From: SAR202 cluster bacterium bin127
Lineage (GTDB): Bacteria; Chloroflexota; Dehalococcoidia; Lucifugimonadales; Lucifugimonadaceae
DNA: 64,000 nucleotides
Assembly: GCA_002239045.1 (NCBI GenBank)
Contig: MPNN01000002.1
Location: 1 to 64,000 of the forward strand
Reading direction: 5' to 3'
The position numbers and the translations under genes were made by a program. The notes beneath the pieces are model-generated. The model was not told where the DNA came from. It searched no databases and was given only the letters and a program-made list of their open reading frames with translations. Of the stretch, positions 5,934 to 39,556 are shown piece after piece. Within the stretch, counting starts at the first letter, position 1. Each line of letters begins with the position of its first letter.

Positions 5934-8468
5934 TCAACTCACGACGACGTTGAAGAGCCGACCGGGGACATATATGGTGCGTCGGACCGTTTTGTCTTGC
6001 GTGTGACGCACGGCGCCCGGGGCGGCCAAGGCCGCGAGTTCAATTTCCTTCTCGCCGGCATCGGTCGGAACCGTAATAGTGTCGCGCACCCGTCCATTCA
6101 CTTGAACCACGATCTTGACGGTGTCGACCGTGAGTTTCGACTCGTCCCATTCAGGCAGCAGGTGCTGGTGGACGGAGAATTCCCATCCGTTGCGGAGCCA
6201 GAGCTCTTCGGCGATGTGGGGTGCGAGCGGCGCGAGGTGCAGGATCAGGCGCTGGATGCTTGCACGCCATAGACCCGCGGAGACGCCACCGTTGTCCCAG
6301 GCGTCGTTCAGCTGGTTGACGTAGGTCATTAACGCCGCGATTGCGGTGTTGTATTTGTAGGCACGCATATCTTCGATTACGCGCTTGGTCAACGCGTTCG
6401 AAGCCACGTCTAGAGTCAGCTCTGCGGTTTGGTCGTTGCCGGCCAACTCGTTTGGATCGCGCGTACCGATGTCCCAGACTCGGTGCAACCAACGTCGAAT
6501 ACCGTTGATTCCCGAATCGTTCCAAGTGCCGCCCTTATCCCAAGGGCCGAGGAACATCAGGTAACAGCGAAGGGTGTCGGCTCCGTACTTACGCACCAGC
6601 GGGTCCGGCGTGACCGGGTTGGAACGTTTCGAAATTCTGCCGTCGATGGTTGTCATGACCCCGTGACTGAAGAGGTGGATGTACGGCTCGGAGAATTTGA
6701 CGAACCCGGTGTCGCGCAGCGCGCGGTTGAAGAACCGAGCGTATAGCAGATGCATGACCGCGTGTTCCATGCCGCCGGTGTACTGATCGACTGGCGCCCA
6801 ATCGTTGGCGACTTCGCTATTGAACGGGTTTTCGGCATCTTGGGGGCTGAGGTAGCGCATGTGGTACCAGGACGAATCCATGAAGGTGTCCATAGTGTCG
6901 GTCTCGCGCTTTCCGGGTCCGCCGCAGTTAGGACACGGGGCGTTGAGGAACTTCTCGTGTTCGATGAGTGGCGACCGACCGGAAGGTTGGAACTCGGCGT
7001 CGGACGGCAACTCGACGGGAAGGTCTTCGTACGGAACGGGGACGGCGCCGCAGTCGTCACAGTAGATGATCGGGATCGGGGTTCCCCAATAGCGCTGGCG
7101 CGAAATCAACCAGTCGCGGAGGTGATAGGTGACGACCCGTTCGCCCCATGCCTTGTTTTCGATTTCGTCGGCGATGGCTTCTTTGCCTTGTTCGCTCGGG
7201 AGGCCGTCGAACTCGCCGGAGTTAACTTGGACGCCGGGGGCGATATAGGCCGCGTCGAGATCGTCGCCGTCCCATCCGTCGGGTGCGACGACCACTCGGA
7301 TCGGGAGGTCGTACTTCTTGGCGAATTCGAAGTCGCGCTCGTCATGCGCCGGGACGCCCATAACGGCTCCGGTCCCGTAGGTCGCGAGCACGTAGTCGCC
7401 AACTAGTATCGGAACGCGTTCACCGTTGAGTGGGTTAATGCAATATGAGCCGGTAGGAACGCCGGTCTTCTCACGCACCGCAGAGGTGCGTTCGATCTCG
7501 GTCTCACGCGCCGCGGCGGCGACGTATCCTTCGACCGTTGCTTTGAATTCAGGTTGGGTCAACTCCGAGACCAAGGCGTGCTCGGGGGAGAGAACGACGA
7601 AAGTGACGCCGAAGATCGTGTCGATACGGGTGGTGAAGGTTGCGATCGACTTCGTTTCAAGGTTGTATTCGGAGATGTCGAAGCGGATGTTGACGCCTTC
7701 GGATCGGCCGATCCAGTTCTCTTGACTGACGAGGACTTTGTCGGGCCACTCGATCCCGGACATGTCGAGCATCTCGTCGGCGTATTTGGTGATGGCGAAG
7801 TACCACTGGGGCATGTTGCGCTTGACGACGAGCGCCTCGCAGCGTTCGCACTTGCCGTCTTTGACCTGTTCGTTGGCGAGAGTCGTTTGGTCCGCGGGGC
7901 ACCAGTTGACGGCTCCGTCGGATCGGTATGCGAGCCCGTTCTCCAGAAACTTCAGGAAGAAATATTGGTTCCACTTGTAGTATTCAGGGTCGCACGTGAT
8001 GATCTGACGGGACCAATCGTAGGAGTTGCCCATGAGCTCGAACTGGCGGCGCATATTGGCGATGTTGTCGTAGGTCCAGATCTGGGGGTGGACCTTGCCG
8101 CGGATGGCGGCGTTCTCGGCGGGAAGGCCGAAGGCGTCGAAACCTTGGGGATGCAGGACGTTGTACCCCTCCATCCGCTTGAATCGAGCCGCGGCGTCCC
8201 CGCCGCTAAACGCGAACCAGTGGCCGATGTGGAGGTCGCCGGATGGATAGGGGAACATCGACTGCACGAACCACTTCGGGCGGTCGGTGTCGTCGGGGTC
8301 CCATCGGTAGACATCGGCTTCGTTCCAGAGCTGGCGGATGCGCGGTTCGATCGCTCCGTGATCGTACTTGCCGTCCGAGGAGTTGACGGAATCGTCGAGG
8401 TCGTCGGAGCTATGCTGCGGGTTGATGGATGAAATTTTGGATGGGATGTCGGATGCCGTAGCCATCAA
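5934..8468 (-). CDS. leuS: Leucyl-tRNA synthetase
   Basis: Class Ia synthetase, 844 aa, that attaches leucine to tRNA-Leu. The HIGH signature is in FPYPSGDLHIGHW (residues 80-83). Zinc-type cysteines are seen in NWCPADQ...GKCERC and in CDDCGAVPV/CPNCGG. An editing (CP1) region sits in the middle and the anticodon-binding domain follows. The KMSKS loop near residue 608 reads GRISKRSNPVT, a departure from the usual KMSKSKGN. An N-terminal extension of about 35 residues (Ser/Asp-rich) precedes the catalytic core. The gene is transcribed divergently from lexA and convergently with the 107-aa protein gene. Confidence 0.95.
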   Translation of the reverse strand: MMATASDIPSKISSINPQHSSDDLDDSVNSSDGKYDHGAIEPRIRQLWNEADVYRWDPDDTDRPKWFVQSMFPYPSGDLHIGHWFAFSGGDAAARFKRMEGYNVLHPQGFDAFGLPAENAAIRGKVHPQIWTYDNIANMRRQFELMGNSYDWSRQIITCDPEYYKWNQYFFLKFLENGLAYRSDGAVNWCPADQTTLANEQVKDGKCERCEALVVKRNMPQWYFAITKYADEMLDMSGIEWPDKVLVSQENWIGRSEGVNIRFDISEYNLETKSIATFTTRIDTIFGVTFVVLSPEHALVSELTQPEFKATVEGYVAAAARETEIERTSAVREKTGVPTGSYCINPLNGERVPILVGDYVLATYGTGAVMGVPAHDERDFEFAKKYDLPIRVVVAPDGWDGDDLDAAYIAPGVQVNSGEFDGLPSEQGKEAIADEIENKAWGERVVTYHLRDWLISRQRYWGTPIPIIYCDDCGAVPVPYEDLPVELPSDAEFQPSGRSPLIEHEKFLNAPCPNCGGPGKRETDTMDTFMDSSWYHMRYLSPQDAENPFNSEVANDWAPVDQYTGGMEHAVMHLLYARFFNRALRDTGFVKFSEPYIHLFSHGVMTTIDGRISKRSNPVTPDPLVRKYGADTLRCYLMFLGPWDKGGTWNDSGINGIRRWLHRVWDIGTRDPNELAGNDQTAELTLDVASNALTKRVIEDMRAYKYNTAIAALMTYVNQLNDAWDNGGVSAGLWRASIQRLILHLAPLAPHIAEELWLRNGWEFSVHQHLLPEWDESKLTVDTVKIVVQVNGRVRDTITVPTDAGEKEIELAALAAPGAVRHTQDKTVRRTIYVPGRLFNVVVS

Positions 8469-30875: not shown

Positions 30876-30901
30876 GGAACTTATCCCAGTCGTCCAACGT
30901 C
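30876..30901 (+). promoter_or_regulatory. ECF-type promoter GGAAC-N17-CGTC, copy 1
   Basis: GGAAC (30876-30880), a 17-bp spacer, CGTC (30898-30901). ATG follows 35 bp after CGTC. The element is identical in form to those before the next three genes. Confidence 0.75.
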
Positions 30902-30936
30902 TAGATAATAGTGAGCAACCAACCAAAGGAAAAATC

Positions 30937-32625
30937 ATGTCGATGTTACACATAGCGATTCTCGTCGCAATAGCAACCCTCTTTGCGCTCGCGATCGCCT
31001 GCGCCGGAGGGGGCGAATCCGACGATTACTACAGCCAAACGAGTGAATTTGGGCTAGATGCGGCTCTCGTCACCAAAGGCGAATCGGACGGAGGTTTCGC
31101 AATCGCAACCGTCGTTGTCGAAAGGGAGGTCATGGTGGCTTTCGAAGCTGAGGAAGCCATGATGGATTTCCCCACGCCTGAGCCCGCTGCCGCTGCCGCG
31201 AAGGCGATGTCAGATGAGCAATCGGCCCAGAACGTCAACATCTCGATCCAGCCCACGAACCGGATAATCGTCCGGAACGCCGATATGATCGTCGAGTCGA
31301 ACGATCCCGGTGCGACGATTGACGCCATTGGAGACCTCGCCGTTTCGCGCGGCGGATGGGTTGTCAATAGCAACACTATCGAGGCAGGATCGTTCTACCA
31401 GATCACCGTGCGGATCCCTGCCGACACCCTCGACTCCACTATTGAGCAGATATCCGCGAGCGTAGTGAAGGTCGTTTCTTCTCAATCAGACAGCACCGAC
31501 TTTACCGAGGAATTCATCGACCTCGGCGCACGCCGGTCCACCGTTCAAGAGACCGTCGACGCTCTCACTGAGTTGCTGCGCAACGAAAACTACGACAGCG
31601 TTCAAGAGCTTCTCGAGGTGCAACGCGAAATCACCAACTGGCAGGCCGAGCTGGAACGCATCGACGGACGCTTGGCATTCATCAGCGAATCGGCCGCCTA
31701 TTCTCGCCTATCCGTAACCGTCAACCGCTCGCCAATCCCGATGCGCGTCGACGTTGGAGAAGATGTCCACGTGGGCATCGGCGTCGGACGCAAATATACC
31801 GCACGATTCTTCCCGCCCGAGGGCTATGGCGGTTACGAGGTCACTTGGAACTTCGGTGACGGATCATCGACCCAAACCGTCTACAACGGTCTTCGCACTC
31901 AGGGCGAAGACGGACTCCTCAGCGTTCCTGTCCAACACACCTACCTGTCTGACGAACTTGCCCCGCATGTCGTAACCGCGACGGTCCGGGCATTCTCGGA
32001 CCGCGGCTTGGCAGAAGGCGAAGACCAACTGTGGGCGAACGTTTCCGAGCTGCCCCGCATCGACGCATTCGTGACAACGTCGGAGTTCGACGTCGAACAA
32101 GGTCAGCCGGCAACTCTGACCGCGTCCTTCAATCACCCTGACTCCCTGCGAAACCTTCGATACTCCTGGGACTTCCGAGACGGTTCTCCCGTCGTCGAAG
32201 GGACGGTTGAGTCCGGCGACACTGGCGTCGAAATCGAGCACGTCTTCAATCGGCACCGTCCAGAGTCATACCAGATCGTCTTCGAGATCCGGGGCGACAG
32301 CGACGCTGGCGAGGTTGAAGAGACGCACTATGCCCACGTTTACGTCTATCCCGGGCCAGAGATCGAATCATCCGATTTTGCCCCCGGCAATACCGCAACA
32401 AACGCCGTGAACGTCCTCATCAGCGTTTTCACATTTGCCGGGACCGCTGGCATTTGGCTCGCCATCACGTCGCCGATCTGGATCATTCTGGGCGTGATCA
32501 TCTTCTTCATCGTCCGCTTCATCATTCGTCGGCAACGTAACGTCCAAAGAGTGGTCTTTGTGCCTTCATCAACGGACGATGAGCCGGATGCCGGTGATAC
32601 CGATGATGCTCGGGCACCAGCATAG
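30937..32625 (+). CDS. DUF4349 plus PKD-like membrane-anchored protein (A)
   Basis: Start at ATG 30937 (MSMLHIAILVAIATLFALA), with AAAGGA upstream; the longer frame would cover the ECF promoter. 562 aa. Signal peptide with a lipobox-like AIAC. DUF4349 spans about 107-266 (RIIVRNADMIVESNDPGATI, FTEEFIDLGARRSTVQETV, and the coiled segment LLEVQREITNWQAELERIDG). Two PKD-like units follow (WNFGDGSS near 306, WDFRDGS near 411), then a C-terminal membrane helix (about 491-528) and a basic tail. Homologous throughout to A' at 34895, which has more PKD units. DUF4349 proteins are exported and of unknown function. Confidence 0.85.
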   Translation: MSMLHIAILVAIATLFALAIACAGGGESDDYYSQTSEFGLDAALVTKGESDGGFAIATVVVEREVMVAFEAEEAMMDFPTPEPAAAAAKAMSDEQSAQNVNISIQPTNRIIVRNADMIVESNDPGATIDAIGDLAVSRGGWVVNSNTIEAGSFYQITVRIPADTLDSTIEQISASVVKVVSSQSDSTDFTEEFIDLGARRSTVQETVDALTELLRNENYDSVQELLEVQREITNWQAELERIDGRLAFISESAAYSRLSVTVNRSPIPMRVDVGEDVHVGIGVGRKYTARFFPPEGYGGYEVTWNFGDGSSTQTVYNGLRTQGEDGLLSVPVQHTYLSDELAPHVVTATVRAFSDRGLAEGEDQLWANVSELPRIDAFVTTSEFDVEQGQPATLTASFNHPDSLRNLRYSWDFRDGSPVVEGTVESGDTGVEIEHVFNRHRPESYQIVFEIRGDSDAGEVEETHYAHVYVYPGPEIESSDFAPGNTATNAVNVLISVFTFAGTAGIWLAITSPIWIILGVIIFFIVRFIIRRQRNVQRVVFVPSSTDDEPDAGDTDDARAPA

Positions 32626-32648
32626 GTTTCCTGCACAAAAACTAACGG

Positions 32649-32687
32649 GGCTCGGGACCGCAATCGGTCCCGAGCCTTTTTCTTTTT
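32649..32687 (+). terminator. Rho-independent terminator after A
   Basis: Perfect 12-bp stem GGCTCGGGACCG/CGGTCCCGAGCC with loop CAAT, followed by TTTTTCTTTTT. It ends the A transcript before the next ECF-type promoter. Confidence 0.92.
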
Positions 32688-32706
32688 GACGACTTCGAGA
32701 TCTGCG

Positions 32707-32732
32707 GGAACAAAAACTCCCCCACCGTCGTC
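32707..32732 (+). promoter_or_regulatory. ECF-type promoter GGAAC-N17-CGTC, copy 2
   Basis: GGAAC (32707-32711), 17 bp, CGTC (32729-32732). ATG 41 bp after CGTC. The downstream leader (CCCAAAACAACGTCACGGAG) is nearly identical to the one before B'. Confidence 0.75.
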
Positions 32733-32773
32733 TGTTCTTCAGTGACCCAAAACAACGTCACGGAGAACAGGAA

Positions 32774-34681
32774 ATGATGATCAACAAAACAGAGCAACTC
32801 AAAACTCTCATAACTAAACCAATGACGACGATCGCACTCGTGATCGCCGCCACGGTCGTCGCCGCGACTATCGCATGTGGCGGAAGCGAAACCGTGGTGC
32901 AAACGGTAGTGGTCGAAAAATCAGTGCCGGGACAACCGGTGCTCCAAACCGTAATCGTCGAGAGGGAAGTGTCGGTGCCTGGTGAAACGGTGGTTCAGAC
33001 GGTAGTGGTGGAAAAAGAAGTGAAAGTGCCCGCTGAAACGGTGATTCAGACGGTATTGGTGGAAAAAGAAGTGATGGTGGCCGGTGAAACGGTGGTCCAG
33101 ACGGTAATCGTAGAAAAGGAATTCGTCGTCGAGGTTGAGGTCGAGAAGGTTGTAGAAGTCGAAGCGATGACCGCCGCGCCAGCAGCAACAGCGGCATCGC
33201 ATAGCGCACCGACACCCGTCGTTAAGGCATCGCCGCCGAGTTCGCCAAGCCAATCCTCCCAACCAGGAGCGACGACTTTCCAGAACACAACTCGTAGCAA
33301 CTTCGCTTTAACGTCGCAGGACGACACATCGACCTTTAGCCTCGACACCGATCGCACTTCGTTCCAACTCGCCCTCAACTGGACGCGTTCGGGCTACGAA
33401 GTCGACCCGGCTTCAGTTCGAGCGGAAGAGTGGATCAATGCCTTCAACTACGGCTACGAAATGCCTCGTCACGACGATTCCTTCAACATCCAGACCGACA
33501 TCATCGCCCATCCGCTCGATAATGGCCTTCACTTGGCTCGCGTCGCGTTCCAAGCGCCGGACGTAGTGGTTGACCTGCCGTTGAATGTAACGCTGGTGCT
33601 CGATGGTTCGGGGTCGATGTCCGACGGAAATCGGGTCGAGATAGCTCGCGAAGCCGCCGAGACTATCCGGTCGAGCCTAGGTCGAGATGATCGAATGTCG
33701 ATCGTTCACTTCGACAACAACGTCAAGCGTGGCTTGACAGTCAGAGACGACGACCCCGGAAGCACGGCGCTCCGTAACTCCATCCGCGACCTCTACCCAG
33801 GTGGAGGAACCAACGTTCAAGCTGGATTGAACCAGGGCGTGCAACTGGCAGACGAGATGCGCAGGCAGCGACCTAACGCGTATAACTACGTGATCCTCAT
33901 GTCTGATGGCGTAGCCAACGTAGACGCGACCAACCCCTTCGCGATCCTCGAAACAGCTCGTGATGATAACCCCAGCAACCCGATCCGATTGATCACCATC
34001 GGCGTCGGCATTGCTAACTACAACGATGTCCTCCTTGAGCAACTTGCCCAACACGGCAACGGTTGGTACCGGTACCTCAGTTCGCCTGACGAGGGACGCA
34101 TGCTCTTTGACCGCGATAACTGGCTCGCTCTGTCCGTGCCATTTGCCGACCAGACACGCGCCCAAGTTGTCTGGGACGAGGAACATGTTCGCAGCTGGCG
34201 AATGATCGGATACGAAAACCGCGTCACCTCTGACGAGTCGTTCACTCGTGCGGAGAAAAAGTTCGCCGAGCTTCCTGCTGGTGCCGCAACTACGGTCTTC
34301 TTCGAGCTAGAGCTGGTGGACCCGTACGTGCTTCGCAACGGAAACGAACCACTCGGCAATGTCGAGGTCCGGTGGGTCACCCCCAGCACGGGTGAAGGAA
34401 ATCGCCAACACCGCGAGATCGATGCCGCCCTGTCAAACAGCGATTCGACAACCGACTTCGGTGCGATCGTCGCGCTTGCAGCCGATCGCTACAGCGGCCG
34501 GCACGAATACGGCAGCGACCACCCCGGATCGATCCACAACGATCTCTCCGACCTCCAAGCGCTGCTTCGATCGCTAGGCTCCCCGATCTCGGGCACCGAC
34601 GCCTACAACGACTTCGAATTCGTGCTCGACTCGCTGGTCGGAAGCGTCCAACCAGTTCCACGCACCGGTTACAGCAGGTAA
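32774..34681 (+). CDS. YfbK-like von Willebrand factor A lipoprotein (B)
   Basis: 635 aa from ATG 32774 (AGGA upstream). A signal peptide ends in lipobox ATIAC. The mature N-terminus is a stalk of VVQTVVVEKEV-type repeats (about 38-135), then a Ser/Pro linker. The YfbK N-terminal domain (FSLDTDRTSFQLALNWTRSG) precedes the vWA domain with a complete MIDAS: DGSGSM (near 276), the Thr in GGTNVQAG and the Asp in LMSDGVANV. The C-terminal region (WVTPSTGEGNRQH, FGAIVALAADRYSG) fits DUF3520. It is predicted to be a surface metal-dependent binding protein. Highly similar to B' at 37757. Confidence 0.9.
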   Translation: MMINKTEQLKTLITKPMTTIALVIAATVVAATIACGGSETVVQTVVVEKSVPGQPVLQTVIVEREVSVPGETVVQTVVVEKEVKVPAETVIQTVLVEKEVMVAGETVVQTVIVEKEFVVEVEVEKVVEVEAMTAAPAATAASHSAPTPVVKASPPSSPSQSSQPGATTFQNTTRSNFALTSQDDTSTFSLDTDRTSFQLALNWTRSGYEVDPASVRAEEWINAFNYGYEMPRHDDSFNIQTDIIAHPLDNGLHLARVAFQAPDVVVDLPLNVTLVLDGSGSMSDGNRVEIAREAAETIRSSLGRDDRMSIVHFDNNVKRGLTVRDDDPGSTALRNSIRDLYPGGGTNVQAGLNQGVQLADEMRRQRPNAYNYVILMSDGVANVDATNPFAILETARDDNPSNPIRLITIGVGIANYNDVLLEQLAQHGNGWYRYLSSPDEGRMLFDRDNWLALSVPFADQTRAQVVWDEEHVRSWRMIGYENRVTSDESFTRAEKKFAELPAGAATTVFFELELVDPYVLRNGNEPLGNVEVRWVTPSTGEGNRQHREIDAALSNSDSTTDFGAIVALAADRYSGRHEYGSDHPGSIHNDLSDLQALLRSLGSPISGTDAYNDFEFVLDSLVGSVQPVPRTGYSR

Positions 34682-34751
34682 TCAGCAGACCTCTGAAGGC
34701 TCATTGCCTTCGATATCGCTCACCGTCGCGAGTTGGACGGTGAACAGCGAA

Positions 34752-34787
34752 GAAGACGCCCTCGTACCATAGCGCGAGGGCGTCTTC
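34752..34787 (+). terminator. Strong hairpin after B
   Basis: 13-bp stem GAAGACGCCCTCG (34752-34764) and CGAGGGCGTCTTC (34775-34787), 10-nt loop. The downstream GTTATT is only weakly T-rich, so termination is likely but not certain. Confidence 0.7.
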
Positions 34788-34827
34788 GTTATTGGACACA
34801 CGCGCTCAGAACACCTGCGTTTCAGCG

Positions 34828-34853
34828 GGAACAAATTAGCATCCGCCAGCGTC
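34828..34853 (+). promoter_or_regulatory. ECF-type promoter GGAAC-N17-CGTC, copy 3
   Basis: GGAAC (34828-34832), 17 bp, CGTC (34850-34853). ATG 41 bp after CGTC. The spacer and leader differ from copies 2 and 4, yet the boxes and spacing are conserved. Confidence 0.75.
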
Positions 34854-34894
34854 AACTCCTATATGAACCCAATCCACACGAAGGAGAATTCATC

Positions 34895-37333
34895 ATGACA
34901 TACGCAATAGACATGGTCGCTCAGCGGCCGAAAATCTTCCTCAGCCTATTCAGCTTTATCTTCGCAGCATTGATGGTTGTCAATTGCGGTGGATCTAGCG
35001 ACGGGGAATCTGGATTCCCGGGCGCACTAGGGGCTCCGGGGGAGCCGGGAGCACCAGGCGCACCGGGAGAACCAGGAGCACCGGGATCGCCAGGCGGAGC
35101 CATCATCCAGACCGTAGTCGTTGAGAAAGAGGTGATGGTTTTAGGCGAAACCGTAGTTCAAACCGTCGTTGTCGAGCGCGCAGTTGAAGTCATGAAGGAG
35201 GTCGAAGTTGAGCGCGTTGTTGAGGTCGTGAAGGAGGTTGAGGTCGCTGGTGAGAGTGTGGTCCAACCGGTAAGTCCCGTCGCGGCGTCTGACGTAGCCC
35301 AATCCAGCTCAGAAGATACTGCGCAAAACGACGAAATCTCGTTCCAACCACAGGCACGAGTGATCGTCCGAAATGCAGAAATGACGGTGCAATCCGATGA
35401 CCCGAGCGCAACCGTCGATGCAATCGGCGACCTTGCCAATGACCGCGGAGGTTGGATCGTCGACAGCACCGCCAATGATCGAGGTTCGTACAGCATCACG
35501 ATCCGAGTGCCCGCCGAAATCTTGGATGCCGTCATCGACGAGATCTCAAGTTCCGTGGCGAAGGTAGAAAAAGTCAATTCAACGAGCGCGGACTTCACCG
35601 AGGAGTTCATCGATCTAAGCGCCCGACAAACGACGGTTCAAGAAACCGTCAACGCTTTGACGGAGCTACTGAAAACCGCCGAGTACGACAGCGTCGAAGA
35701 ACTGCTGGAAGTGCAAAAAGAGATAACCAGCTGGCAGACGGAGCTCGAAAGCATCGACGGAAGATTGCGGTTCATCAGCCAATCCGCCAACTTCTCTAAA
35801 TTGCAGGTAACCGTAAACCTCTCGCCAATCCCGATGCAGGTTGACGCGGGTTCAGATATCCGCGTGGGCCTATCGACTCAGCGACAATACACTGCGCGTT
35901 TCAATCCGCCCGAAGGATACGACCGTTTCGAGATCGTCTGGGATTTCGGCGACGGAACACCACCTAGGTCCGCCAAGTCTGCCCTCAGGACTCAAAACGA
36001 AGAAGGATTGTTGAGCGTCCCGGTGGTTCACAGCTACAGCAGCGACGGCTTCTCTCCTTATGTCGTAACGGTCAGCATCAAGGCCTACTCGGAAAACGGC
36101 GTGGCACAAGGTGAAGACAAAATCTGGGCCCACGTCGCGCCGGTCTCGTTCAACGTCGATGCTGGTGGCGATATCGATGTCGGTGTCCACGAACAGAACC
36201 AGTACACGGCGCGATTCAATCCGCCGGAGGGGTACGACAACTTCGAGATCACCTGGGATTTCGGCAACGCTTCCGGACAGAAGATCGTGCGATCAGCGCT
36301 GCGTACTCGAGACAACCAAGGTTTCCTTAGCGTTCCCGTAGTTCACGCTTACGATACCGACAGGTTCTCGCCGTACGTCGTGTCGGTCAACGTCAAAGCG
36401 TCTTCTGACCAAGGCGTGGCATACGGGAGAGACAAGTTCTGGGTCAACGTCGCTCCCATAGCGGTTGAAGTAGACGCTGGAGAAGACATCGGCGTTGGTA
36501 CGAACGTGCAACGGCAATACACTGCGCGCTTCATTCCGCCCGAAGGATACGATCGTTTCGAGATCACTTGGGATTTCGGCGACGGAACCGGATCTCAGAC
36601 GGTCTATTCGGCGTTGAAGACTCAGGACGCATCGAGCTACTTGAGCGCCCCGGTTGTCCACACCTATTACGACGACGCGTTCTCGCCATACGTCGTGACG
36701 GTAAAAATCAAGGCATCGTCTGACAGAGGGGTTTCCGAAGGCGGTGACCAGCTGTGGGCACATGTCTCGGAACTGCCCCAGATCGAAGCATACCTGTCGG
36801 CCTCTCAACACACCGTAGAAGAGAACCAACAGGTCAGATTCACCGCGACCTTCAACCACCCGGAGACGGTACGGAACTTGATGCACCGATGGGACTTCCG
36901 GGACGGTTCGAAGATCACCGAAGAACCGATCGGCCCCGACGTTACTCGCGTCGAGATCGAGCATGCATTCGACCGGTTTAGGCCTCAGTCGTATCCCGTC
37001 AAGTTCGAAATTTGGGGAGAAAGCGACGCCGGAGAAGTGCTTGAAACGCATTTCATCGACATATACGTCACGGCATCGCCAACAGTGAACTCATCCGAAT
37101 TCGAACCCGGAGAGACCGCCACACAAGGCATCAACGTTCTGGTCGCGTTCTTCACCTTCGCGGGAACAGCGGCGATCTGGATCGCGACAACCTCGCCGAT
37201 CTGGCTCATCTTCGGCGCGGGCATCTACTTCGCGGTACGTTTCGCGATCCGTCGGCGACGCCGGTTGGCGAGCGTGATGGAAGCGCCAGACACAGAACCT
37301 GGGGATCCCGACGAATCATCCTCGTCGGTCTAG
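34895..37333 (+). CDS. DUF4349 plus PKD-repeat anchored protein with collagen-like and VEKEV stalk (A')
   Basis: Start at ATG 34895 (AAGGAGAA upstream), 812 aa. Signal segment FLSLFSFIFAALMVVNC ends in a possible lipobox Cys. A collagen-like Gly-X-Y run (about 40-68, GAPGEPGAPGAPGEPG) is followed by a VEKEV/VEREV stalk (about 70-125). DUF4349 spans about 152-312 (FTEEFIDLSARQTTVQETVN). Three near-identical PKD-like repeats beginning YTARF-PPEGYD follow (WDFGDGT near 350, WDFGNAS near 454, WDFGDGT near 558), plus a fourth divergent one (WDFRDGS near 666). The C-terminal membrane helix (about 746-789) has a basic tail. Paralogue of A. Confidence 0.85.
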   Translation: MTYAIDMVAQRPKIFLSLFSFIFAALMVVNCGGSSDGESGFPGALGAPGEPGAPGAPGEPGAPGSPGGAIIQTVVVEKEVMVLGETVVQTVVVERAVEVMKEVEVERVVEVVKEVEVAGESVVQPVSPVAASDVAQSSSEDTAQNDEISFQPQARVIVRNAEMTVQSDDPSATVDAIGDLANDRGGWIVDSTANDRGSYSITIRVPAEILDAVIDEISSSVAKVEKVNSTSADFTEEFIDLSARQTTVQETVNALTELLKTAEYDSVEELLEVQKEITSWQTELESIDGRLRFISQSANFSKLQVTVNLSPIPMQVDAGSDIRVGLSTQRQYTARFNPPEGYDRFEIVWDFGDGTPPRSAKSALRTQNEEGLLSVPVVHSYSSDGFSPYVVTVSIKAYSENGVAQGEDKIWAHVAPVSFNVDAGGDIDVGVHEQNQYTARFNPPEGYDNFEITWDFGNASGQKIVRSALRTRDNQGFLSVPVVHAYDTDRFSPYVVSVNVKASSDQGVAYGRDKFWVNVAPIAVEVDAGEDIGVGTNVQRQYTARFIPPEGYDRFEITWDFGDGTGSQTVYSALKTQDASSYLSAPVVHTYYDDAFSPYVVTVKIKASSDRGVSEGGDQLWAHVSELPQIEAYLSASQHTVEENQQVRFTATFNHPETVRNLMHRWDFRDGSKITEEPIGPDVTRVEIEHAFDRFRPQSYPVKFEIWGESDAGEVLETHFIDIYVTASPTVNSSEFEPGETATQGINVLVAFFTFAGTAAIWIATTSPIWLIFGAGIYFAVRFAIRRRRRLASVMEAPDTEPGDPDESSSSV

Positions 37334-37689
37334 CCTCCGCCAAGGCAATTATTCACTTGACACACCCGGCGTGAGTCGTTTTCGCCTCTTGTGCCGCCGC
37401 CATTCCCGCCTCCTGTGCGGGTAATGGCGGAGAGTGTTGGTACGGCTCTCCGTCAAGAGAGGGTCAGAGTATGTCAAAGACATGCATTGCTGTCCCACGG
37501 GGCCAGTTTCGACGCATCCCAAGCTCTGATACCGGTTCTGCCCAAGAATTGATGATGATGTCATGTATATGACAGGTATAAATACATAAATATCACGCTA
37601 TTATCACACAAATATCCTGTAAGATTTAACTTGTATGTCCGAATTCAGCGTGGAGATCGCGCAGTTTCGCGATTTTCCTCAATTTACAG
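37334..37689. other. Gene-free spacer downstream of A'
   Basis: Contains the hairpin at 37397-37430, then an AT-rich stretch (37560-37630) with ATGTCATGTATATGACAG, a near-palindrome around TGTCATGTATATGACA (37559-37574). The ECF-type promoter of B' lies at the end. No gene is convincing here. Confidence 0.55.
37397..37430 (+). terminator. Hairpin after A'
   Basis: CCGCCATT-CCCGC (37397-37409) pairs with GCGGG-T-AATGGCGG (37417-37430), 13 bp with one bulge and a 7-nt loop. There is no T-run, so it may stabilise the 3' end or terminate weakly. Confidence 0.5.
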
Positions 37690-37715
37690 GGAACAAATCC
37701 CCAACGTGCAGCGTC
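37690..37715 (+). promoter_or_regulatory. ECF-type promoter GGAAC-N17-CGTC, copy 4
   Basis: GGAAC (37690-37694), 17 bp, CGTC (37712-37715). ATG 41 bp after CGTC. CCCCAAAACAATGTCACGGA follows, matching the leader before B. Confidence 0.75.
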
Positions 37716-37756: not shown

Positions 37757-39556
37757 ATGAACCTCTCAACTATCGCACCAACCAAACACCTCAGATCCAA
37801 TCCCGTCACCGCGATCGCACTTTTGATCGTTGGTATAATCACTGCCGCAACGATCGCTTGTAGCAGTGACGAGGTTGTCGTGGAATATCAAGCCCAACCA
37901 GGCTTGGCGGGCGACCCAGGTCAACCAGGCTCGCCGGGCGACCCGGGTCAACCAGGCTCGCCGGGCGACCCGGGTCAACCAGGCTCGCCGGGCGCCCCAG
38001 GTCAACCGGGCTTGGCGGGCGCCTCAGGTCAATCTGGACCCCCGGTCCACGTCGAAGTCGCGAAAGAGGTCATCGTCGAGGGCGAATCACCAGTGTTCGG
38101 TTCGCCGCCACGTCGCCAACCTTACCAACCGTCCCAACCTGGCGCCACAACCTTTCAAAACACGAGCCGTGCCAACTTCGCCCTGACATCCCAGGACGAC
38201 ACCTCGACTTTCAGCCTCGACACGGATCGCACTTCATTCCAACTCGCACTCAATTGGACGCGCTCGGGCTACGAGGTAGATCCGGCGTCCGTCCGCGCGG
38301 AAGAGTGGGTTAACGCATTCAACTACGGCTATGAGTTGCCTCGTCATGACGATTCCTTCAACATCCAGACCGACGTGATCGAACACCCACTAGACGAGAA
38401 TCTCCACTTGGCACGCGTCGCATTTCAAGCTCCCGACATCGCTGTTGACCTACCTCTGAACGTTACTTTGGTGCTCGACGGTTCGGGATCAATGTCCAAC
38501 GGCAACCGAGTCCAGATCGCGCGCGATGCGGCCGAAACGATCCGGACGAGCCTCGGGAGGGACGACCGAATGTCGATCGTGCACTTTGACGACCGCGTGA
38601 AGCGTGGACTGACCGTGGAAGACGACAATCCCGGAAGCCGATCGATCCGCAACTCAATCCGCGACCTCAGGCCTGATGGCGGAACCAATGTCCAAGCTGG
38701 TCTGGACCTCGGCGTTGAGTTGGCGCATCGCATGAGAAGGGAGCGACCAGATTCGTTCAACTACGTCATCCTCATGTCCGACGGCGTTGCGAACGTCAAC
38801 GCTACGAACCCATTCGCAATACTCGAATCAGCGTCTGACAGAGACCCAGACAACCCGCTAAGGCTGATCACCATCGGTGTTGGAATCGAAAACTATAACG
38901 ACGTTTTGCTGGAGCAACTCGCCCAATACGGCAACGGTTGGTACCGCTACCTAAGCGAGCCGGAAGAAGGCCGCAGACTATTCGCCCGCGACAGCTGGCT
39001 GTCGTTGTCGGTGCCGTTCGCAGACCAGACCCGAGCGCAAGTCGTCTGGGACGAAAATCTCGTCCGCAGCTGGCGCATGATCGGATATGAGAACCGCGTC
39101 ACGTCCGACGAGTCGTTCACTCGTGCCGAGAAGAAGTTCGCCGAACTTCCCGCCGGTACCGCAACCACGGTCTTCTTCGAACTCGAACTCGTCGACCGCT
39201 ACGAGTTAGGTAACACGAACGAGCCGCTTGGCGATGTCGAAGTGCGGTGGGTTACGCCCAGCACTGGTGAAGGAAATCGCCAACACCAGGAGATCGACGC
39301 CATCCTCTCAAACCGCGATGCAGCAACCGACTTCGGCGCCATCGTCGCGTTGACCGCCGATCGCTACAGCGGCCTGCACGAATACGGCGGCGAACACCCC
39401 GGCTCGATACACAACGATCTCTCCGACCTCGCTAGCAGGTTGCGAAGCGTAGGTTCACCAATCTCCGGCACGTCGGCTTACGAGGATTTCGAATACGTTT
39501 TGAATGCCCTAGTCGATAACGTCGAGCCCGCACCAAGCACTGGATACAGCAGGTAG
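37757..39556 (+). CDS. YfbK-like von Willebrand factor A lipoprotein with collagen-like stalk (B')
   Basis: Start at ATG 37757, with CACGGAG upstream; the longer frame would run over the promoter. 599 aa. Signal peptide with lipobox TIAC. In place of the VEKEV stalk of B there is a collagen-like run GDPGQPGSPGDPGQPGSP (about 46-92) and one short VAKEVIVEGE relic. The YfbK N-domain, the vWA domain with full MIDAS (DGSGSM near 241, GGTNVQAG, LMSDGVANV) and the DUF3520-like C-terminus are very similar to B. Clearly a duplicate of B with an exchanged stalk. Confidence 0.9.
   Translation: MNLSTIAPTKHLRSNPVTAIALLIVGIITAATIACSSDEVVVEYQAQPGLAGDPGQPGSPGDPGQPGSPGDPGQPGSPGAPGQPGLAGASGQSGPPVHVEVAKEVIVEGESPVFGSPPRRQPYQPSQPGATTFQNTSRANFALTSQDDTSTFSLDTDRTSFQLALNWTRSGYEVDPASVRAEEWVNAFNYGYELPRHDDSFNIQTDVIEHPLDENLHLARVAFQAPDIAVDLPLNVTLVLDGSGSMSNGNRVQIARDAAETIRTSLGRDDRMSIVHFDDRVKRGLTVEDDNPGSRSIRNSIRDLRPDGGTNVQAGLDLGVELAHRMRRERPDSFNYVILMSDGVANVNATNPFAILESASDRDPDNPLRLITIGVGIENYNDVLLEQLAQYGNGWYRYLSEPEEGRRLFARDSWLSLSVPFADQTRAQVVWDENLVRSWRMIGYENRVTSDESFTRAEKKFAELPAGTATTVFFELELVDRYELGNTNEPLGDVEVRWVTPSTGEGNRQHQEIDAILSNRDAATDFGAIVALTADRYSGLHEYGGEHPGSIHNDLSDLASRLRSVGSPISGTSAYEDFEYVLNALVDNVEPAPSTGYSR
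37892..38036 (+). repeat. 27-bp tandem repeat encoding the collagen-like stalk
   Basis: Unit GGCGACCCGGGTCAACCAGG plus CTCGCCG, encoding Gly-Asp-Pro-Gly-Gln-Pro-Gly-Ser-Pro. About three near-perfect and two diverged copies occur in frame. The high DNA identity of the inner copies implies recent expansion or contraction. Confidence 0.85.

Follow-up and report, generated by a model that had tools for sequence, protein, structure and literature searches.

Gene content and promoter elements of the four-gene array

The window considered here, i.e. the whole 64,000-nucleotide stretch of DNA that was analyzed, comes from an uncultured marine member of the Dehalococcoidia. Its forward strand carries four tandem genes, here termed A to D, each preceded by a predicted promoter of the form GGAAC-N17-CGTC. 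The features are listed below with their window coordinates; promoter scores are those of the weight matrix described further on.

30876..30901, + strand: predicted promoter of gene A, TGGAACTTAT...CGTCTAGATAAT; score 34.0, the best of the whole window
30937..32625, + strand: gene A, 562 aa; DUF4349 (PF14257, 2.9e-31) and PKD (PF00801, 5e-11) domains, lipobox-like LAIA-C, C-terminal transmembrane stretch
32707..32732, + strand: predicted promoter of gene B; score 17.1; kept in five genus relatives
~32741..32765 (approximate), + strand: dyad GTGAC-N10-GTCAC and GGAG in the gene B leader
32774..34681, + strand: gene B, 635 aa; YfbK-like VWA lipoprotein with VEKEV repeats (PF12450, 1.9e-16; PF00092, 3.2e-19; PF12034, 1.5e-8)
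34828..34853, + strand: predicted promoter of gene C; score 16.2; kept in the nearest relative (L138 position 7566)
34895..37333, + strand: gene C, 812 aa, paralog of A; DUF4349 (PF14257, 7.8e-34) and PF18911 (1.2e-17), with several PKD-like, collagen-like and VEKEV repeats
37690..37715, + strand: predicted promoter of gene D; score 31.7
37757..39556, + strand: gene D, 599 aa, paralog of B; YfbK-like VWA (PF12450, 9.9e-17; PF00092, 1e-14), collagen-like repeats (PF01391, 1.8e-9)

Sequence profile searches identified A and C as DUF4349 proteins (PF14257 at 108.9 and 117.3 bits, against a cut-off of 27.7), and B and D as YfbK-like VWA proteins combining the vWF_A (PF12450), VWA (PF00092) and YfbK_C (PF12034) domains, all above the Pfam cut-off. 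The array hence consists of two paralogous pairs, with protein identities of 44-53% between A and C and 68% between B and D. The first-pass annotation had described these as envelope genes; the N-termini of all four products are lipoprotein-like, as judged by eye.

A pattern search of the window recovered the bipartite element upstream of every gene of the array, always on the forward strand, with the CGTC box 35, 41, 41 and 41 bp from the start codons at 30937, 32774, 34895 and 37757. The spacers of the four sites have diverged from each other, while both boxes are unchanged and the spacer length is 17 throughout. In four relatives from the same genus the element is also kept before the ortholog of gene A, in one of them with CGTT in place of CGTC.

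The dyad GTGAC-N10-GTCAC lies just 5' of the ribosome-binding site of gene B and has orthologs in L135-L138; in L135 both arms show a paired change, GTGAT...ATCAC. It could form either a hairpin or an operator. Two types of repeats are also shared between the array and the candidate anti-sigma factor described below: collagen-like Gly-X-Y repeats occur in C, D and the anti-sigma (window positions 35020-35100 and 37850-38040), and VEKEV repeats are common to B, C and the anti-sigma (L035 10474-11502). The latter were considered as a hint of direct contact between the anti-sigma and B or C and discarded, as such repeats recur at roughly a dozen further sites of the genome (38 matches).

Frequency, spacing and position of the element

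The presence of AAC in the -35 box and CGT in the -10 box is regarded as a hallmark of ECF sigma factor promoters (PMC8103513). This form, as which the first-pass annotation had read the element, is found at all four genes of the window and at the ECF sigma locus described below, indicating that these are likely to be ECF-type promoters.

The first-pass annotation had also raised the question of chance frequency. With a spacer of 16-18 the bare motif occurs seven times in the window, as against 3.9 +/- 2.1 in shuffled sequences, and 11 of 100 shuffles reach seven, so that the count is not significant in the window; the three additional matches fall within long open reading frames or on the strand opposite to them. 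Across the whole genome there are 49 matches versus 24 for the reversed pattern. Given the weak excess in both window and genome, the bare count was dropped as proof. Motif count alone being insufficient, the significance of the four sites derives from their fixed spacing, their position and their conservation in relatives. Since the four genes form two paralog pairs, their promoters are partly common by descent, and the four sites do not represent four independent events. The mild over-representation in the window and the paralogy of A with C and B with D would both suit a reading in which the elements are chance matches, or persist solely as a consequence of recent gene duplication; the evidence against this comes from spacing and, as discussed below, from the relatives.

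A histogram of spacer lengths in seven genomes of the genus showed 21 sites of the form GGAACAAA...CGTC at a spacer of 17 (counted from GGAAC), with all other spacings averaging 2.1. This is an about tenfold peak, although the genomes are related to each other and the counts are thus not independent events. The corresponding values for the own genome are six sites versus 0.4. As a list of sites, the pattern GGAACWW-N15-CGTC was rejected: it occurs 18 times in the genome, and about eight sites are to be expected at any one spacing, judging by the sum of all spacings, i.e. nearly half would be background. Stretches around such sites yielded no match above the matrix threshold in L038, L039, L042 and L045, and weak matches near that threshold in L040 and L046.

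A weight matrix was built from 52 sites adjoining sigma genes of other genomes only, the window sites being excluded from training. When run on both strands of the window (~128,000 positions), it ranked the four sites first to fourth, with scores of 34.0, 31.7, 17.1 and 16.2, the next best position scoring 9.9. The training sites were chosen by exact boxes, and the independent weight of this ranking comes from the flanks and part of the spacer. The window has just one more exact N17 match, at 7033 on the strand opposite a long open reading frame, and its score of -0.04 indicates that the discriminating power of flanks and spacer is real.

The ECF sigma factor and its candidate anti-sigma factor

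The first-pass annotation had proposed a dedicated sigma factor encoded outside the window and a search for an ECF sigma/anti-sigma pair. The genome (3.02 Mb, 21 contigs) codes for four proteins with a sigma-70 region 2, only two of which are of ECF size. One of these, a 196 aa protein encoded at C20:241768-242355, displays the domains PF04542 (residues 23-90) and PF08281 (123-173), separated by a linker of 32 aa (the criterion for ECF factors being less than 50), and recovers the NCBIfam sigma70-ECF model with 1.9e-25. Its gene is followed, 13 bp past the stop codon, by GGAACAAA...CGTC, then by an anti-sigma-like gene starting at C20:242474, a second GGAACAAA...CGTC and a gene for a secreted SIMPL (DUF541) protein.

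The product of the anti-sigma-like gene has no significant Pfam match (RskA_N reaches 15.9 bits, with a cut-off of 27). Its identification as a candidate anti-sigma factor rests on its position, a single TM segment, the PRSF motif conserved in the family and a zinc-finger HLxxCxxC found at the same position in order-level relatives, and the family comprises single-pass proteins with a conserved cytoplasmic domain. The zinc motif HxxxCxxC of the ZAS is absent from the anti-sigmas of the own family, and the HLxxCxxC zinc motif is seen in those of other families of the order (L171, L173, L175, L178, L179 and L181). Zinc and non-zinc members are reported to occur side by side in the same groups (PMC7406223).

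The second ECF factor, encoded on C14, has its own downstream membrane protein, a putative anti-sigma. Its existence, and the likeness that ECF promoters of different groups can have, might suggest that the elements are read by this factor or by several sigmas with overlapping specificity. This is nevertheless very improbable, as no GGAAC-N17-CGTC site occurs in the 14 kb around the C14 gene, whereas the C20 locus has two; moreover, the element is present at every one of the 44 homologous sigma loci in other genomes, while two paralogous ECF loci of other genomes, L167 and L168, have no site above threshold. The C14 factor was rejected as regulator of A-D on the absence of a site at its locus. 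The four elements very probably are promoters for RNA polymerase carrying one dedicated ECF sigma, namely that of C20:241768-242355.

Conservation across the order

Homologs of the C20 sigma were collected without regard to the motif, giving 45 loci with the own one included; they range from the genus through the family to further families of the same order. The element is present at the 3' end of the sigma gene, before the anti-sigma gene, in 45 of 45 loci (44 with a spacer of 17), and upstream of the sigma gene in none of the 45 when searched within 350 bp. The expectation that the pair's own promoter would bear the motif is therefore confirmed for the anti-sigma gene and contradicted for the sigma gene. 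Most loci have a second element 3' of the anti-sigma gene. In the own genus the first element lies just 3' of the sigma stop codon, and outside the genus it in most cases extends over the final codons of the sigma gene (ELLPASMRL-stop and variants). Where it does so, the codons of the boxes are frozen at synonymous sites (conservation of 1.0 for GAA, 1.0 for CGT, 0.84 for TTA and 0.83 for CTA), as against mostly 0.2-0.5 for other codons.

Positive autoregulation has been a hallmark of ECF factors, though it is no longer a defining rule (PMC8103513), and the arrangement seen here gives no indication of it. A variant element in the start region of lepB was considered for sigma autoregulation and set aside in view of its weak scores, its presence in one or two genomes and its location inside coding sequence.

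In genus relatives the A-B pair is found with both promoters wherever the contig extends far enough, and the nearest relative also has C; this suggests that the four-gene array is a duplicated pair. Those relatives that bear a name are Dehalococcoidia/Chloroflexota metagenome genomes. The nearest relative (L169, G004 C1:1506985-1507071) keeps A, B and C, and downstream of C only the last 29 codons of D are matched, which looks like the remnant of a deleted copy. GGAAC-N17-CGT(C/T) is also frequent upstream of YfbK-like genes from other families of the order, with nine sense matches at spacer 17 and at most three at any other spacer. A point against the C20 sigma as the reader of these sites is G003, where the VWA gene keeps its site although a close sigma ortholog was not detected in the genome, which is 88% complete and in 470 contigs. 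A different, distant ECF sigma gene adjoins the YfbK-like VWA gene in some relatives (L145 1168-1659, L147 4779-5294, L168), implying that this gene family has been tied to ECF factors more than once.

These observations bear on two further readings. Chance matches, or retention through recent duplication alone, are extremely improbable: in relatives the spacers differ in sequence but both the boxes and the distance between them are retained, and the element also occurs at all 45 sigma loci and before unrelated genes (the anti-sigma, SIMPL and the C7 and C11 lipoproteins described below), quite apart from the spacing peak. Alternatively, the element might be bound by a conventional regulator or belong to a sigma-A promoter, and the dyad 3' of the boxes in gene B does offer a place where another regulator could act. 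The dyad is, however, confined to B/D-type leaders and imperfect in D, whereas the element consists of two non-palindromic boxes with a fixed 17 bp spacing and orientation and a short leader to the start codon, and is invariably present beside one ECF sigma gene; we accordingly give this alternative next to no weight.

Predicted regulon and proposed circuit

Eight targets are predicted in the own genome: the anti-sigma, SIMPL, A, B, C, D and lipoproteins at C7:299587 (leader of 39 bp) and C11:195384 (58 bp). As the matrix was run on selected stretches, with the genome otherwise covered by pattern searches, this list is a lower bound. All eight look membrane-bound, secreted or lipid-anchored, and with the motif at the sigma's own locus this is consistent with the dedicated sigma for a surface-protein regulon that the first-pass annotation had suggested; its overall interpretation is, at the level of sequence, supported. 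In a relative (G006, L166) a further matrix match lies before a lipoprotein gene. A match in G002 (L165 2063) was rejected as a target, being antisense inside a helicase-like gene and of low matrix score.

The presence of the element at the 3' end and not upstream of the sigma gene suggests that the genes activated by the sigma are probably those for its inhibitor and the envelope proteins, and not the sigma gene. Gene arrangement and promoter form can be read directly from the DNA, and from them we infer signal, binding and transcription as follows. When there is no signal, the sigma would be kept at the membrane by the adjacently encoded single-pass anti-sigma. An envelope signal would remove the anti-sigma, and the freed sigma could then transcribe the anti-sigma gene from the promoter at or inside the 3' end of the sigma gene, thereby damping the response, along with the secreted SIMPL protein, the DUF4349-PKD and YfbK-like VWA lipoproteins of the window and at least two further lipoproteins (C7:299587 and C11:195384). 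The sigma gene, having no such promoter, would probably be read by another sigma. The four-gene array is likely to have arisen when a DUF4349-VWA pair was duplicated in tandem, the copies retaining their promoters.

For a bacterial class whose members are largely uncultured, a motif noticed by eye thus leads to a defined predicted regulon with a sigma, an anti-sigma, eight predicted targets and a promoter matrix that is testable in a laboratory host. It also places proteins of uncertain role, namely the DUF4349, YfbK-like VWA and SIMPL types, under a common predicted regulator. A literature search on ECF sigma factors in Dehalococcoidia found nothing related; as far as that search went, the regulon, its sigma and its order-wide conservation have not been described before.

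Comparison with known systems

Regulatory circuits of this kind are already known. Divergently upstream of the sigma gene lies a gene for signal peptidase I (C20, L035 9157-9714), a neighbor shared by all 30 loci of the first set (the family) and by 12 of 15 further loci. In the SigP-RsiP-SipP system of Bacillus thuringiensis, site-1 cleavage of the anti-sigma is carried out by a signal peptidase (PMC8844934). By analogy, it is conceivable, though unlikely, that LepB is a site-1 protease for the anti-sigma and that the circuit responds to how protein export is faring, coupling lipoprotein export to envelope-lipoprotein expression. If this were true, these uncultured Dehalococcoidia would have an ancient response to secretion stress that is common to the whole order. 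The two systems share the linkage of a signal peptidase to an ECF/anti-sigma pair, but differ in that the link between lepB and the sigma is here one of gene neighborhood alone.

The -35 box is reminiscent of that of Escherichia coli RpoE, which is GGAACTT (PMC8103513, PMC3397946), and RpoE is likewise of the sigma2-sigma4 type with a membrane anti-sigma. Unlike RpoE, the present system has CGTC as its -10 box, a sigma gene without its own promoter upstream and other target genes. The -10 box in turn resembles that of RpoE1 from T. tengcongensis, for which CGTC is needed for recognition (PMC3397946) and whose anti-sigma gene also lies directly downstream; there, however, the -35 box is tGTTAC rather than GGAAC, and organism and targets are different.

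With respect to wiring, an experimental precedent is SigH-RshA of Corynebacterium glutamicum. There, rshA alone is expressed from a SigH-dependent promoter located within sigH, the sigma itself being transcribed from housekeeping promoters, and this arrangement has been proposed to allow fast shut-off (PMC3489674). SigH-type factors are only remote relatives of the Dehalococcoidia sigma. SigH serves in heat and disulphide stress and has a consensus of the GGAAT/GTT type, in contrast to the element described here, and the present system differs further from SigH-RshA in its membrane-spanning anti-sigma and envelope lipoprotein targets. In both cases, nevertheless, sigma and anti-sigma genes are adjacent, and the invariable element at the sigma 3' end, together with the synonymous constraint on the codons that it overlaps, may reflect a similar arrangement in the Dehalococcoidia.
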